The position numbers were made by a program, and so were the translations under genes. Below, piece after piece: positions 35,511 to 43,546 of a stretch of 64,000 nucleotides of DNA (the stretch's first letter is position 1; every line of letters starts with the position of its first letter). Origin of the DNA: Haloferax marinisediminis (lineage in GTDB: Archaea; Halobacteriota; Halobacteria; Halobacteriales; Haloferacaceae); contig NZ_WKJP01000001.1 in the NCBI RefSeq assembly GCF_009674585.1, forward strand, positions 2,294,001-2,358,000, in the 5' to 3' direction. The notes under the pieces are model-generated. The model made no database searches. It saw only the letters and a program-made list of their open reading frames with translations, and was not told where the DNA came from.

Positions 35511-36350
35511 ATGATACCCCCCATCGCGAACAAGTTCGTGGCGGGTGAGACGGCCGATAGTGCGGTCTCGCGCGTTGAGTCGTTGAACCGTGAGGGAATT
35601 TCGGGGATACTGAACCTACTCGGCGAACACTACAGTGACCGACGAGGTGCCGACGCCGACGCCGAGGCGTACGTCTCGCTCGTCCGCGACATCAGCGAGG
35701 CAGATATCGATGGCTGTGTTTCTGTGAAACCCTCGCAAATCGGCATCGACATCAGCGATGGTGTCTTCCGGGAGAACCTCGACCGAATCGTGGAGGCCGC
35801 GAACGACGAAGACGTCTTCGTCTGGGTCGACATGGAAGACCACACGACGACCGACGTGACACTCGACGCCTTCGAAGAACTCGGTCATCAGACCGATGGA
35901 AACGTCGGTGTCTGCGTGCAGGCGAACCTGAAGCGGACGCCAGACGACCTCGAACGACTGGCCGACGTCCCCGGGAAGGTCAGACTCGTCAAAGGCGCGT
36001 ACAACGAGCCTGCGTCCGTCGCTCACAAGAAGAAATCCAAAGTGGACGACGTGTACCAAGAGCTGCTCGAGTACATGTTCGCCGAGTTCGACGACGGAGT
36101 CGCCGTTGGGAGTCACGACCCCAAGATGCTCTCGTACGCACGTGACCTCCACGACGAGTACGGCACGTCGTACGAGATTCAGATGCTCATGGGCGTCCGC
36201 GAAGACGCACAACGCGAACTCGCAGCAGACGACGTCGACGTCTGGCAGTACGCCCCCTACGGCGACAAGTGGTTCCAATACTTCTATCGGCGCGTGCGTG
36301 AGCGCAAGGAGAACGCCTTGTTCGCGCTCCGTGCAGTCGTCGGAGTGTAA
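35511..36350 (+). CDS. Proline dehydrogenase
   Basis: The 279-residue FAD-type proline dehydrogenase family protein has a beta-barrel pattern with VSVKPSQIGIDI, VFVWVDMEDHTTTD, VGVCVQANLKRT, VRLVKGAYNEP and the C-terminal YGDKWFQYFYRRVRERKENALFALRA. It oxidises proline to P5C, feeding electrons to the respiratory chain. The gene and the aldehyde dehydrogenase at 37,322 flank an HTH_10 regulator, so the three likely form a proline-use module. Confidence 0.92.
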   Translation: MIPPIANKFVAGETADSAVSRVESLNREGISGILNLLGEHYSDRRGADADAEAYVSLVRDISEADIDGCVSVKPSQIGIDISDGVFRENLDRIVEAANDEDVFVWVDMEDHTTTDVTLDAFEELGHQTDGNVGVCVQANLKRTPDDLERLADVPGKVRLVKGAYNEPASVAHKKKSKVDDVYQELLEYMFAEFDDGVAVGSHDPKMLSYARDLHDEYGTSYEIQMLMGVREDAQRELAADDVDVWQYAPYGDKWFQYFYRRVRERKENALFALRAVVGV

Positions 36351-36419
36351 CTGACGTTCACACGTTCGACTCTTGTCTGAGACGGGAGAATGCAGTCGAC
36401 CCTAGTGCTATCGTAGTGG

Positions 36420-37151
36420 CTACTGCGGGTCGAGCAGTTTCGATTCGGCCTTCCGCAGGTGTTCGAGCAGCGTCGTCTTCGAGATATCGAGCATCGACGC
36501 GAGTTCTCTGGTCGACACTTCGCGTGGCCAGCGGTAGTAGCCTTCCTCACGGGCCAGTTCGAACGCCTGTCGTTGACTCTGCGTGAGCGTGTCGAGTCGT
36601 TGCTCACGCTCGGGTTCTGCGCCTTCTGCCGAGGTGATAGACTGGACACGGATGTCCGCACCACTCTCGTCCATCACGGTCGCGATTCGGTCTCGAATTT
36701 CACTCCGTTCACCGGCGTACCAGACTTGCCACAGTTCACGTCCCTCCTGTATCCGTGCGGGGGCGCTGTGGATGAACCCCTGTTCGAGGAGATACGGATT
36801 TATCATATCTCCGGGGTCGTACTCCAGAAAGAACTCGCGTGCGACAGACCCCGGTGTCCCCTGCTTCCCCCGGGAGTCGAACCGCTCTTGCAACTCCAGC
36901 ACGTCGCCGGTCAATTCCGAGTCGGCGATGGTGTCGAGGAGTGTCTGAACTTCCTCGGTTGAGTCGCCGTACGCAGTAAAGAGGCCGTTCGTTCGCCCGT
37001 TCTCCCGTGCAATCTCGCCCGTCGGTGCGTCGTAAATCGCGTGTGCGAGAATCCCTCCGTCTTGTTCACTCGTTGCCTCTATCGCCCAGCAGTTCGGATG
37101 CCAGAGGTCGAGCGTCAAGCGCGTGCCTTGTCCTGCCATGCGCTCGCTCAT
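36420..37151 (-). CDS. Bacterio-opsin-activator HTH (HTH_10) transcription regulator
   Basis: The 243-residue regulator's N-terminal part (TLDLWHPNCWAIEATSEQDGGI) is of the bacterioopsin-activator GAF/HTH-associated type. The C-terminus is the HTH_10 domain: LDTLTQSQRQAFELAREEGYYRWPREVSTRELASMLDISKTTLLEHLRKAESKLL. Such proteins are usually local activators or repressors. It lies between the proline dehydrogenase (tail to tail) and the aldehyde dehydrogenase (divergent), implying it controls them. The ATG at 37151 is chosen; the frame to 37196 adds residues not typical of the family. Close homologues control amino-acid breakdown genes by analogy only. Confidence 0.85.
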   Translation of the reverse strand: MSERMAGQGTRLTLDLWHPNCWAIEATSEQDGGILAHAIYDAPTGEIARENGRTNGLFTAYGDSTEEVQTLLDTIADSELTGDVLELQERFDSRGKQGTPGSVAREFFLEYDPGDMINPYLLEQGFIHSAPARIQEGRELWQVWYAGERSEIRDRIATVMDESGADIRVQSITSAEGAEPEREQRLDTLTQSQRQAFELAREEGYYRWPREVSTRELASMLDISKTTLLEHLRKAESKLLDPQ

Positions 37152-37321
37152 ACGGCGGCGTAGTGTGGCCGACTGTAAGACGTTGTCTATGCGCACAATG
37201 AATGACAGCTGACTGACTCGAATCGGACGCTGTCACTCGGCCGGTGTTTGGATGAGAGGGTGGGATACCTCCCATGGGAGGTGCCGGGGTTATTAATGTA
37301 AGTTCCGCAAATATCACCAGC

Positions 37322-38848
37322 ATGGCGCAGGACGTCTATCAACACTATATAAACGGCGAATGGACAGACGGCTCCGGTGAGGAGACGTTCGAAAGCGAGA
37401 ATCCGGCCACCGGTGAGACGCTGGCGACGTTCCGACGCGGAACCCCCGAAGACATCGACGTCGCGGCCGAAGCGGCCGACGAAGCGTTCGAGGAGTGGCG
37501 CGAACTCTCGCACATCGAGCGTGCAGAGTACCTGTGGGACATCTACCACGAACTGCGTGACCGCACCGACGAACTCGCCGAAATCGTCACCAAAGAGTGT
37601 GGCAAGGAAATCAGCGAGGGCCGTGCCGACGTCATCGAGGCGTACCACATGGTCGAATGGGCTGCTGGCGACGCCCGTCACCCGAAGGGCGACGTCGTCC
37701 CCTCCGAGATTCCTGCGAAAGACGCCTACATGCGCCGGAAGCCTCGCGGTGTCATCGGTTGTATCACGCCGTGGAACTTCCCGGTCGCAATTCCGTTCTG
37801 GCACATGGCCGTCGCACTCGTCGAAGGGAACACGGTCGTCTGGAAGCCTGCCGAACAGACCCCGTGGTGTGGGCAGATTATCGCCGAGATGTTCGAAGAC
37901 GCTGGCATCCCAGACGGCGTGTTCAACATGGTACAGGGCTTCGGCGACGCCGGTGCCACCATCGTCGACGACGAGCGCGTAGACACGGTGCTCTTCACCG
38001 GGTCCGCAGAAGTCGGACACGAAGTCGCGAGCAAGGTCGCCCAGCAACCCGGCAAACTCGCCGCGTGTGAGATGGGTGGCAAGAACAACATCGTCATCAC
38101 GGAGAAGGCGGACCTCGACATCGCCGTTCACTCCGCCGTCATGTCGTCGTTCAAGACGACCGGCCAGCGCTGTGTCTCGTCCGAGCGTCTCGTCGTCCAC
38201 GAGGAAGTCTACGACGAGTTCAAGGAGCGATACGTCGAACTCGCCAAGGACGTTTCCGTCGGCGACCCGCTCCGCGAAGACACCTTCATGGGCCCCCTCA
38301 TCGAGGAAGGTCACCTCGACAAGGTCAAAAGCTACGCCGAACTCGCGAAGAAGGAAGGCGTGAACGTCCTCGTCGACCGCACCGAACTCGACGACGACGA
38401 GATTCCAGAGGGCCACGAAGACGGTCACTGGGTCGGTCCGTTCGTCTACGAGGCCGACGCGAAAGAAGACCTGCGCTGCACGCACGAGGAAGTCTTCGGT
38501 CCCCACGTCGCCCTGCTCAAGTACTCCGGTGACATCGAAGAGGCAGTCGAGATTCAGAACGACACCGACTACGGGCTCGCCGGCGCCATCATCTCCGAGG
38601 ACTACCGCCAGATCAACTACTACCGCGACCACGCAGAAGTCGGCCTCGCGTACGGGAACCTCCCGTGTATCGGTGCCGAGGTTCACCTGCCGTTCGGTGG
38701 CGTGAAGAAGTCCGGCAACGGCTACCCGTCGGCCCGCGAAATCATCGAGGCAGTCACCGAGCGCACCGCGTGGACGCTCAACAACTCCAAGGAGATTCGC
38801 ATGGCACAGGGTCTCTCTGCGGACATCAAGACGAAAGACGAAGAGTAA
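37322..38848 (+). CDS. Aldehyde dehydrogenase, probably 1-pyrroline-5-carboxylate dehydrogenase
   Basis: The 508-residue NAD(P)-dependent aldehyde dehydrogenase has the Rossmann/active-site motif GCITPWNFPVAIPFW, general base Glu in ACEMGGKNNIVI, the nucleophile in TGQRCVSSERLVVHE and the C-terminal LPFGGVKKSGNG. The neighbours suggest glutamate-semialdehyde oxidation to glutamate, the second step of proline breakdown, though other aldehydes are possible. The ATG at 37322 fits the family; the upstream region (a palindromic CCTCCCATGGGAGG at 37268-37281) may hold operator sequence. Confidence 0.9.
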   Translation: MAQDVYQHYINGEWTDGSGEETFESENPATGETLATFRRGTPEDIDVAAEAADEAFEEWRELSHIERAEYLWDIYHELRDRTDELAEIVTKECGKEISEGRADVIEAYHMVEWAAGDARHPKGDVVPSEIPAKDAYMRRKPRGVIGCITPWNFPVAIPFWHMAVALVEGNTVVWKPAEQTPWCGQIIAEMFEDAGIPDGVFNMVQGFGDAGATIVDDERVDTVLFTGSAEVGHEVASKVAQQPGKLAACEMGGKNNIVITEKADLDIAVHSAVMSSFKTTGQRCVSSERLVVHEEVYDEFKERYVELAKDVSVGDPLREDTFMGPLIEEGHLDKVKSYAELAKKEGVNVLVDRTELDDDEIPEGHEDGHWVGPFVYEADAKEDLRCTHEEVFGPHVALLKYSGDIEEAVEIQNDTDYGLAGAIISEDYRQINYYRDHAEVGLAYGNLPCIGAEVHLPFGGVKKSGNGYPSAREIIEAVTERTAWTLNNSKEIRMAQGLSADIKTKDEE

Positions 38849-39167
38849 GGCCTCGCGTTCGGCCCCGACTCTCGAATCGGTACGAACCACTTTTTGGGTA
38901 CGTCTACTCCCATCGCAGTTCTGTACGTGATATATCGATAGCTCACTGAGGACGAGCGCGTCGCTCTCGAATCACGTTAGTCGACTGGGGTACACTGCTC
39001 GTCTGAAGTATTGAAGCGCGAGATTTCCGGTATCCTACGTCGCAAATCTCTTGCTTCGTACGAAACTGCGATACGCTCGTTGAAAAACCCGTCGTAACGA
39101 TCGGTTCACTGACCGCCAGACGGTACGTGGTCGACACACAGTGTTCTCACTCGGATTGTCAGTGTCC
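38849..39167. other. Intergenic stretch after the aldehyde dehydrogenase
   Basis: The 319 bases contain a TTTTT tract at 38890-38894 that may end the dehydrogenase message, and then AT-richer sequence with no convincing ORF. Short frames here have no recognisable domain, no ribosome-binding site and no good codon bias. Together with the candidate RNA it makes up the longest gene-free gap in the window. Confidence 0.5.
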
Positions 39168-39378
39168 AAAAGGCGGAGGCAATCTGCCTCCCGCCATGCT
39201 CGTGTCACCAGTTGGCGGAGTGAGACGAGGCGAGGGGTGACGCCCCCTCCGGGCTTGGGGGCGTGAAACGACGTGGCCACGTCGTTGGATGCTACAACGG
39301 ACCCCGATACGTTGCAGCGAGTGCGGCGGATGTGGAGTCGCCGACGTCTGGCGAGAAAAGCGCCTATTGCGTCGGCGA
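39168..39378 (-). ncRNA. Candidate small structured RNA (about 210 nt)
   Basis: On the minus strand, a TATA box TTTATA (39406-39401) is followed about 25 bases later by a structured region. An outer stem pairs 39371-39377 with 39339-39345 (CGCCGAC) around an inner GGCG/CGCC stem. Then come a perfect 20-base palindrome (39267-39286), an 8-bp stem (39240-39247 with 39257-39264) and a terminal hairpin (39172-39195) followed by TTTT. No ORF in this stretch has coding character. It is not a tRNA and lacks the conserved RNase P or SRP RNA motifs I know. Confidence 0.55.
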
Positions 39379-39455
39379 TTTGGGCTAAGGAGCCATGGTG
39401 TATAAACCCACCGTAACACTACATAGCGCACCGCAAGAACGCGAGAATACCCGGC

Positions 39456-39887
39456 TTACGCAGTCGCTTCGAGTTCCCGCCGAAGCGCCGCTTCGAGGTT
39501 GTCGAGTTCGCGGTCGAGGTTCCGCTCGAAGAACGTCTCGACACCCGGGAGTCGGCCGTCGACGACGAACTCGTTGACGAGCCGGCACCCGCTGTCAGTT
39601 TCTTCGATAGTGTGTTCGCCCGTGACTCGCATCACGCGAGACCGGCCGATGAATTTGACGTGCGTCGGCTCTTCGACGGTGACGTCTTCGGTCTCGACTT
39701 TGACGGTCGAGCTCACGAGCGGAATCGGTAACTCGAGGTGCCACGTCGCGTGGCGTCCGTCTGCGGCGACGTCGAATCGGTCGACGACACTAATCGCTCC
39801 GGCTCGCTTCGCTGGGTCAGCGATGAACTCCCAGACGTCCTCGCCGGGGGCGTCGAACTCGAACGTTCGTTTCACGCGGACGGTCAT
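39456..39887 (-). CDS. CoxG-like SRPBCC family protein
   Basis: The 143-residue protein starts VRVKRTFEFDAPGEDVWEFIADPAKRAGAI. It has a central PLVSSTVKVETEDVTVEEPTHVKF and a C-terminal amphipathic helix, FFERNLDRELDNLEAALRREL. This is the small SRPBCC fold of the carbon monoxide dehydrogenase subunit G family, which is widespread in haloarchaea and mostly of unknown role. No cox genes are nearby. Confidence 0.8.
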   Translation of the reverse strand: MTVRVKRTFEFDAPGEDVWEFIADPAKRAGAISVVDRFDVAADGRHATWHLELPIPLVSSTVKVETEDVTVEEPTHVKFIGRSRVMRVTGEHTIEETDSGCRLVNEFVVDGRLPGVETFFERNLDRELDNLEAALRRELEATA

Positions 39888-39930: not shown

Positions 39931-40155
39931 TTAGCTTAGCGTGACGCGCCACGTCGTCGAGCGGGCACGTCCCCACTTCTCGATTTCGACATCTTCAGAC
40001 TTCTCAGCCAGTTGGGGGAGACGGGAACCTACCTGTTTCGCGGTCAGACCAATCGCTTCGGCGATGTTTTTCGCCCGGAAGTACCCCTCTCCGCGGCTAA
40101 CGCTATCGCGGAGGTATGCGATAATGCGTTGTTCCTCGTCGGTGTACTCGGTCAT
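39931..40155 (-). CDS. DUF7123-like small HTH protein
   Basis: The 74-residue protein is winged-helix-like: YTDEEQRIIAYLRDSVSRGEGYFRAKNIAEAIGLTAKQVGSRLPQLAE. The C-terminus (IEKWGRARSTTWRVTLS) is probably the wing. It is of the haloarchaeal DUF7123 type. The ATG at 40155 is chosen over a GTG at 40164 because GTTAAGA (40190-40184 on the minus strand) gives a near-leaderless start. Target genes unknown. Confidence 0.75.
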   Translation of the reverse strand: MTEYTDEEQRIIAYLRDSVSRGEGYFRAKNIAEAIGLTAKQVGSRLPQLAEKSEDVEIEKWGRARSTTWRVTLS

Positions 40156-40206
40156 CCTCGCCACGTCTAGGGAATGTGCGCTCTTAACGGTTACTTGTAT
40201 TCTACG

Positions 40207-40389
40207 CTACTGGAAGATGTGGACGCCGGAGACAGCCAACGAAGCGGCGATAATTGCGAACGCAAAGCCAATCGCCTGCGTCAGTTGGTCTGGTCCAGCA
40301 ATCATCAGCCCTGCACCGACGAGCGTGAGCACGCCGAACAACGCCGCAAAGCCGATTGACTTGTCGGATTGCACCGTCTTGGTTTCCAT
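40207..40389 (-). CDS. Small two-helix membrane protein (DUF7525-like)
   Basis: The 60-residue protein consists of a short polar N-terminus (ETKTVQSDKSIG) and two hydrophobic segments (FAALFGVLTLVGAGLMIAG and AIGFAFAIIAASLAVSGVHIF). It is of a type common in haloarchaea and without known function. The ATG at 40389 is preferred to a GTG at 40404. Confidence 0.65.
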   Translation of the reverse strand: METKTVQSDKSIGFAALFGVLTLVGAGLMIAGPDQLTQAIGFAFAIIAASLAVSGVHIFQ

Positions 40390-40579
40390 ATCGACGAACT
40401 TCACGGGTGCGCACTTAGTTCATTCGACAGCGCGTGCCGCGTGAGTCGGTGCCACCGACGTGTTCACTCCCGACGTGACACGTTCCTGTGTTCGTCCGAA
40501 ACTGTGTGGTCTGTAACCACGCAACGACGCCGTCTTCGGCCGTTCGACATTTGTACGAGTAGCCTCGTGTCACACGACG

Positions 40580-42376: not shown

Positions 42377-43408
42377 TCAGTCGAGCGTAACGTGTTCTGA
42401 CTCTTCGTTGAGCGCCAGGTTCGCCGCGATTTCGGCGTTCCGCATGGCGTACTGTGCAGTCTGCTGGAGACTCACGAGCACTTCACGAATCTGGAGGAGT
42501 TTCTTGTTCTCCATCTCCGGAAGGTCGTTGAGGATGTCGCGCTCGCGGTCACCGATCTCTCGGTACAGTTCGCGGCACTCGATGGTCAGGTCGTAGTCGC
42601 GCTCGACGACGGCCCGAACGGCGGTGTTCGTGATTTCGTCGACAGAGTCGGTGAACTCACGGATGCGCCGCATCGTGGACTGGTCGACGTCGATGGTGTG
42701 GCCATCGGCGTCCATGACGATGTTCGCGATATCCTCGGCGTTGTCGGCGGTGAGTTCGAGGTTCTTCGCCACGGCACGGTAGCCGATGAGCGGGAACCCA
42801 GAGTCGAGGCCGACGGCGCGTGCGAGGTTCGGGTTCTGATACGAGGTGAAGATGAGGCGAAGCAACAGGACGAAAATCTTGTTCGCCTGTCGCTCGCGGT
42901 TGAGGGCCCGCTGTGCGAGGTCAGGGTTCCCGTGTGCGAGCGCCTTGACGGCCTCTCCGCGCATCGTACTGCCAGTGTTCTCCAGTCGTTCGAGCAGGTT
43001 GTCGAGCGTGAAGTCCTCGGCGTCGACCGAACAGCGAATCGCGATTCGCTCGGGCGTCTCCTCGATGACACCGAGACCCATGAGCTGTGTCTCGGCTTTG
43101 TAGACGGCGTTGATGTGGTCGGAGTCGAGCGCGCCTTCGCTCTTTTCGATGTGGATGACGCGTCGCCCGAGGACGTACTGTGCGACGATTGCGCGTTCGA
43201 GTGCCTCTGCGTTCAGATTGTCAGCGCGAATAGTCGCCTTCGAATCTTCGTTGCTCACCGACTCCGGGAGGACAGTCAGGGTACCTTTGCCGCTCGTACG
43301 AATGGACACTTCGTCGCCCTTGTCGACGTTGTGTTCTTTGGCCCACTCCGCTGGCAACGTCATCGCCAGCGTGGAGGGACCGAGACGCTGGACTTTCCGG
43401 GTTTCCAT
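42377..43408 (-). CDS. PhoU-domain regulator with AbrB/SpoVT DNA-binding domain
   Basis: In the 343-residue protein, residues about 1-50 form an AbrB/SpoVT swapped-hairpin domain (METRKVQRLGPSTLAMTLPAEWAKEHNVDKGDEVSI). Two PhoU-type helical bundles follow (GSTMRGEAVKALAHGN and ENKKLLQIREVLVSLQQTAQYAMRNAEIA). This fusion is typical of archaea and regulates phosphate transport or related genes. The start at 43408 removes 12 residues of the longer frame. No pst genes are adjacent. Confidence 0.88.
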   Translation of the reverse strand: METRKVQRLGPSTLAMTLPAEWAKEHNVDKGDEVSIRTSGKGTLTVLPESVSNEDSKATIRADNLNAEALERAIVAQYVLGRRVIHIEKSEGALDSDHINAVYKAETQLMGLGVIEETPERIAIRCSVDAEDFTLDNLLERLENTGSTMRGEAVKALAHGNPDLAQRALNRERQANKIFVLLLRLIFTSYQNPNLARAVGLDSGFPLIGYRAVAKNLELTADNAEDIANIVMDADGHTIDVDQSTMRRIREFTDSVDEITNTAVRAVVERDYDLTIECRELYREIGDRERDILNDLPEMENKKLLQIREVLVSLQQTAQYAMRNAEIAANLALNEESEHVTLD

Positions 43409-43546
43409 GGAGAGTGACAGCCATTCAATGACCTTAAATCCCACTATATGCCAACCTTAGTGAACAATGATTTGGAACTTTCCTTTCACACACTGACCCA
43501 TACTAGAGCAGGTGTCTGGAGAGTTCCCCTGTCGGTGACGTGTGCC

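Follow-up and report, generated by a model that had tools for sequence, protein, structure and literature searches.

Evidence for a vertically inherited, single-copy structured RNA gene with its own TATA promoter across nearly a whole haloarchaeal order

A gene of about 210 nt in Haloferax marinisediminis (C1:2333168-2333378), which lies in the 64,000-nucleotide stretch of DNA that was analysed as a whole (the window), belongs, with a probability that we put at roughly 0.95, to a family of stand-alone structured non-coding RNA genes that is inherited vertically, is present in single copy across nearly the whole order, and is equipped with its own TATA promoter. A preliminary description had presented this locus as an undescribed small RNA, a view that is supported by (i) the failure of any Rfam 15 family to match the RNA at gathering or relaxed thresholds, (ii) compensatory base changes in its stems, and (iii) the lack of a conserved reading frame. 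The features of the locus, all in window coordinates, are collected in Table 1.

Table 1. Features of the RNA gene and of its immediate neighbours
Feature	Position	Strand	Remarks
Non-coding RNA gene, ~210 nt	39168..39378	-	single copy in genus, family-wide covariance model matches; predicted transcript
TATA box TTTATA	39401..39406	-	22 nt ahead of the first paired base, 39378
Hairpin I: 9-bp outer stem, asymmetric internal loop, 4-bp inner stem	39338..39378	-	covariation
Apical loop of hairpin I, seven bases CUUUUCU	39354..39360	-	alignment A8, held-out loci
C-rich single-stranded linker CUCCACAUCCGCCGCACUC	39319..39337	-	alignment A7; unpaired in RNAalifold consensus
Hairpin II: 9-bp stem, CGGGGUC in loop	39291..39318	-	7/9 pairs changed on both sides; RNAalifold
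Hairpin III: 20-nt perfect palindrome AACGACGTGGCCACGTCGTT, GGCC loop	39267..39286	-	genus only
Hairpin IV: GC-rich 8-bp stem, loop AAGCCCGGA	39240..39264	-	stem varies, loop kept
Hairpin V: stem CUCGU...ACGAG	39199..39229	-	alignment A9 and MFE; genus level
Terminal stem-loop, 10 bp with one bulged G, then UUUU	39168..39195	-	probable 3' end, this species
SRPBCC (Polyketide_cyc2) protein, upstream neighbour	39456..39887	-	PF10604, E 3e-17
DUF7123 protein, upstream neighbour	39931..40164	-	PF23438, E 5.5e-13
Aldehyde dehydrogenase (ALDH), convergent neighbour	37274..38848	+	PF00171

The TATA box that had been reported ahead of the stems is present, and its distance from them is fixed across relatives. 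At 64 of 72 loci, the first base of hairpin I is preceded by a TATA-like box that starts 27-28 nt upstream (exactly 28 nt at 54 of them), as compared with a background rate of 0.6% per 15-nt window for such a box. Among 20 held-out loci, taken from genomes that were absent from the building of every model, 18 carry the box 26-29 nt upstream of hairpin I, and 18 carry the upstream neighbours. Because the held-out loci share both the TATA box and these neighbours, the hairpin I matches represent orthologous genes and not chance motifs. The RNA is predicted to start near 39380-39378, from its own TATA promoter, and to begin at hairpin I; the promoter, together with the conservation, points to its transcription. 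A scan for bacterial promoters and terminators was uninformative, as expected for an archaeon. At the other end of the gene, similarity in the genus search stops near 39167 (query positions 2-254), and conservation in the genus alignment A2 begins shortly ahead of the TATA box and extends as far as the terminal U-run.

The 211-nt sequence folds at -90.1 kcal/mol, compared with -75.1 +/- 4.3 kcal/mol in dinucleotide shuffles (z -3.5), of which 1 in 200 was as good. Covariation within the genus was too weak for any test, and cross-genus alignments were used. Alignment A8, comprising hairpin I from 47 sequences of many families, shows compensatory changes in 9 of 13 pairs, a number reached by 0 of 500 shuffles. 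Alignment A7 covers hairpins I and II of 30 sequences; here both sides have changed, with pairing kept, in 16 of 23 pairs, and again 0 of 500 shuffles match this. The A7 structure pairs 89.5% of the cells, whereas slid structures pair 20-57%, and RNAalifold independently recovered the same helices when the structure was not supplied. Compensatory changes, whose absence the preliminary description had named as the outcome that would speak against an RNA, are abundant in both hairpins. Its argument that the order of promoter, folded body, and terminator is hard to obtain by chance is also strengthened, in that the TATA position and hairpins I and II are kept across genera with compensatory changes.

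The inner stem of hairpin I has 5 bp in most relatives, and its internal loop varies among them (alignment A8). The first six bases of its apical loop, CUUUUC, are invariant in all 47 sequences of this alignment, whether the inner stem is closed by C-G, U-A, or A-U. Since the stems change and the loop bases do not, the loop is probably recognised as a single strand, by a protein or by another RNA. A heptaloop variant, CUUUUCA, occurs at 17 loci, mostly in one family (f7) and in some others.

The core of the linker that follows hairpin I, CCGCCGCA, is found in most Haloferacaceae matches; the linker zone is richer in C than in G across the order (43% versus 30%), and C exceeds G over the first 170 nt. 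Further downstream, the palindrome of hairpin III is the sole 20-nt perfect palindrome in the window. The preliminary description was right about its presence, but it has been seen in this genus only, and is not kept in Haloprofundus. The GC-rich 8-bp stem that had been claimed is likewise present, as hairpin IV, and its CCCGG loop is retained in several genera although the stem changes. GC-rich hairpins with a YCGG loop were counted at 50 of 73 loci, with the hairpin II loops of Haloferacaceae included in this count, versus 5.4 (maximum, 10) in shuffles and 16% of flanking windows. The terminator-like hairpin with its TTTT exists here as described, but is not conserved and so forms no defining part of the RNA: it is absent in two Haloferax species, where the CCUCCGCC...UUU tail stays, and no such hairpin was seen in other genera, in which a C/U-rich tail is all that recurs. 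In one further genus (g11, four loci), the body of the RNA is rearranged with hairpin I kept, and hairpins with GGUCGG and CGGGGGCC loops, located further downstream, replace hairpin II.

In a DNA search, each genome of the genus (15 of 15) had one locus, with an identity of 86-97%; additional short matches in six of them stem from the palindrome, which also matches on the opposite strand. Pattern-scan matches in GTDB came from Haloferax elongans, marinum, sulfurifontis, gibbonsii, prahovense, mucosum, larsenii, profundi, massiliensis, marisrubri, and denitrificans. A covariance model of the genus RNA (R1) found one match each in 56 of 170 family genomes, representing 14 of 28 genera, and a second model (R2; hairpins I and II, 30 sequences) extended the RNA to other families. 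With a third model (R3), made from hairpin I alone (47 sequences), the RNA was found in 337 of 392 order genomes and 84 of 95 genera, essentially in single copy; among the good-quality order genomes, the share was 314 of 345 (91%). The conservation expected within Haloferacaceae was thereby found, and its range proved wider than proposed. In three genomes of one family (f14), sub-threshold orthologues that have a TATA box are flanked by CN-hydrolase and ALDH genes; they are structural variants in which the inner stem is shortened to GCG/CGC, which places them under the model threshold. Because such genomes were scored as missing and nevertheless carry the RNA, the true coverage lies above 337/392.

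Outside the order, a sample of the phylum yielded one weak match, which we took as chance because it has neither a TATA box nor syntenic neighbours. Two IMG/VR matches to the hairpin pattern were similarly attributed to chance, since they lie in sequence that resembles coding DNA and lacks both a promoter and the syntenic neighbours, and a plasmid search returned no match to the RNA. An insertion-sequence end, the other contrary outcome that had been named, is excluded by the single copy per genus genome, the conserved synteny, and the lack of a plasmid match.

The gene order around the RNA is conserved as DUF7123, SRPBCC, often CN-hydrolase, and then the RNA on the same strand, usually followed by a convergent gene. 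An SRPBCC or CN-hydrolase gene lies directly upstream on the same strand at 56 of 77 loci, the DUF7123 cluster is present at 59, and the gene directly downstream, in convergent orientation, encodes an ALDH at 22 and a RIO-like kinase at 13. At most loci the RNA is not the leader of the next gene, since the same-strand gene upstream stops before it and the gene downstream mostly runs in the opposite direction. Its location between convergent genes at many loci could reflect a cis element: either the 3' UTR of the SRPBCC/CN-hydrolase operon after processing, or a folded spacer at which transcription stops between the two convergent genes. We consider this improbable, given that the RNA has its own TATA box at a fixed distance, that hairpin I stays while the upstream SRPBCC and CN-hydrolase genes alternate and the downstream gene changes, and that hairpin I is found on the promoter side rather than on the 3' side.

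Several other genes in the window were noted. A small membrane protein of ~60 aa is encoded at 40207-40404, and its relatives occur upstream of DUF7123 at 26 loci; a PhoU protein with an N-terminal MazE/AbrB-like domain (42377-43444), ~3 kb upstream of the RNA, is nearby at 47 loci. On the other side, genes for a proline dehydrogenase-like protein, a helix-turn-helix regulator, and the aldehyde dehydrogenase adjoin one another (35511-38848) and probably make up a cluster for proline degradation.

In favour of an mRNA for a small protein, an open frame of 90 aa runs across the locus. This frame, however, begins upstream of the predicted start site, and the longest complete frame among homologues ranges from 0 to 65 aa. 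Moreover, within the genus the RNA body has taken indels of 2 nt and of other lengths that are not multiples of three (alignment A9), so that it is not coding sequence, and the conservation is explained by covariation. The earlier judgement that no coding frame is convincing agrees with the absence of a reading frame conserved among homologues, and we regard an mRNA as the least probable of the readings considered here.

Among the known RNA classes, archaeal RNase P RNA (RF00373) gives no match at the locus and is encoded elsewhere in the genome (C1:820194-820608), as is archaeal SRP RNA (RF01857), which is a separate gene at C1:2510211-2510522; both results bear out the initial impression that neither signature is present. 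Sub-threshold Rfam matches fell outside the RNA and on the opposite strand, and were chance-like. A guide RNA of a divergent H/ACA or C/D type, directing the modification of rRNA or tRNA, would also be structured and stand-alone; few guides are known in H. volcanii, and we counted in favour of this reading that divergent haloarchaeal guide RNAs have been noted (PMC2584109). Nonetheless, box C (RUGAUGA) is absent in 73 homologues, no K-turn or conserved pocket is obvious while the internal loop of hairpin I varies, and no Rfam guide family matches, H/ACA included. Complementarity to 16S, 23S, and RNase P RNA does not go beyond chance either, whether the conserved single strands or the full RNA are considered. 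On balance, we consider a guide function highly unlikely.

With regard to function, we prefer, at roughly even odds, a trans-acting regulatory RNA to a structural RNA or a sponge; the data do not decide between the two. In the trans-acting RNA, hairpin I would be the protein handle and the C-rich single strands the pairing part. The invariant CUUUUC loop, held on a rigid two-step stem, could form a protein-binding site, for which an inner stem of about five pairs topped by a seven-base U-rich loop would be well suited. Its partner might plausibly be an oligo(U)-binding protein such as archaeal Lsm, the rings of which bind U-rich RNA (PMC10779274), and hairpin I may in addition protect the 5' end of the RNA. 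The C-rich linker, the CCCGG loop(s), and the pyrimidine-rich tail, all presumably single-stranded, would base-pair with G-rich stretches of target RNAs; the segment that follows hairpin I, being C-rich and G-poor, is predicted to be largely unpaired and suited to such targets. As judged from its sequence, the RNA also has the independent promoter, the intergenic location, and the absence of a frame by which haloarchaeal intergenic regulatory sRNAs are recognised. Two observations weigh against a trans-acting regulator: conservation as deep as the order also suits a structural ribonucleoprotein RNA, haloarchaeal sRNAs being usually fast-evolving, and the sequence beyond hairpin I differs strongly between families, which is unusual for a base-pairing regulator whose targets are conserved.

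The RNA could instead be a housekeeping ribonucleoprotein RNA, or a sponge that inactivates an RNA-binding or transcription protein in the manner of 7SK, 6S, or CsrB, and would then have no base-pairing targets. We hold this to be a serious minority reading. It would account for the near-universal, single-copy occurrence, the conserved gene order, and the invariant loop bases, as well as for the drift of the candidate pairing regions next to a fixed hairpin I, whereas neither a long bulged helix as in 6S nor repeated GGA loops as in CsrB are seen. The principle possibly shared with 7SK-, 6S-, and CsrB-type RNAs, to which we liken the RNA by principle only, would be the presentation of exposed loops to a protein. 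More speculatively, and in our estimation with less than even probability, the RNA might be the core of an undescribed, near-universal haloarchaeal ribonucleoprotein with a housekeeping role like that of RNase P or SRP RNA, the CUUUUC loop being its recognition site.

The RNA is new to Rfam 15 and to the accessible literature, although it may already be listed, unnamed, in a haloarchaeal sRNA table, as surveys of haloarchaeal sRNAs have reported hundreds of intergenic RNAs. Our literature search did not find an order-wide family with such a structure, which is weak evidence, as most subscription papers were outside its reach. The RNA represents a deeply conserved archaeal non-coding RNA in a group whose members include genetically tractable hosts, Haloferax among them, and a covariance model of it would annotate hundreds of genomes at once.

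Like archaeal SRP RNA and RNase P RNA, it is single-copy, order-wide, and structured, but these are separate genes here. Among haloarchaeal sRNAs, the descriptions of hts10, H225.2R, HM46_V, and HVO_2908s from H. volcanii and H. mediterranei come, in the texts available, without a sequence or usable map position for comparison. Two other RNAs, the 209-nt itsRNA STRG.136887.1 of Halobellus limi (PMC7002113) and the 182-nt sRNA_83 of H. volcanii (PMC12482152), are of similar size, conserved in other species, predicted to be structured, and listed with no assigned function; their descriptions define neither an order-wide family nor a motif, and as far as the available portions of their descriptions, our sole basis of comparison, allow, both may be the same RNA as the one reported here. 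The H. volcanii RNAs sRNA132 (PMC6560208) and s194 (PMC6104027) resemble it in being stand-alone, intergenic, 100-250 nt in length, and endowed with stems and an own promoter, and sRNA132 features a 13-nt pyrimidine-rich single-stranded linker (PMC6560208). Haloarchaeal sRNAs are described as usually evolving fast and as seldom common to the members of one genus, 22 of 27 being confined to one species (PMC3956466). Both sRNA132 and s194 are limited to a species or genus, whereas the RNA described here is order-wide, occupies one syntenic site, and keeps a fixed 5' hairpin.
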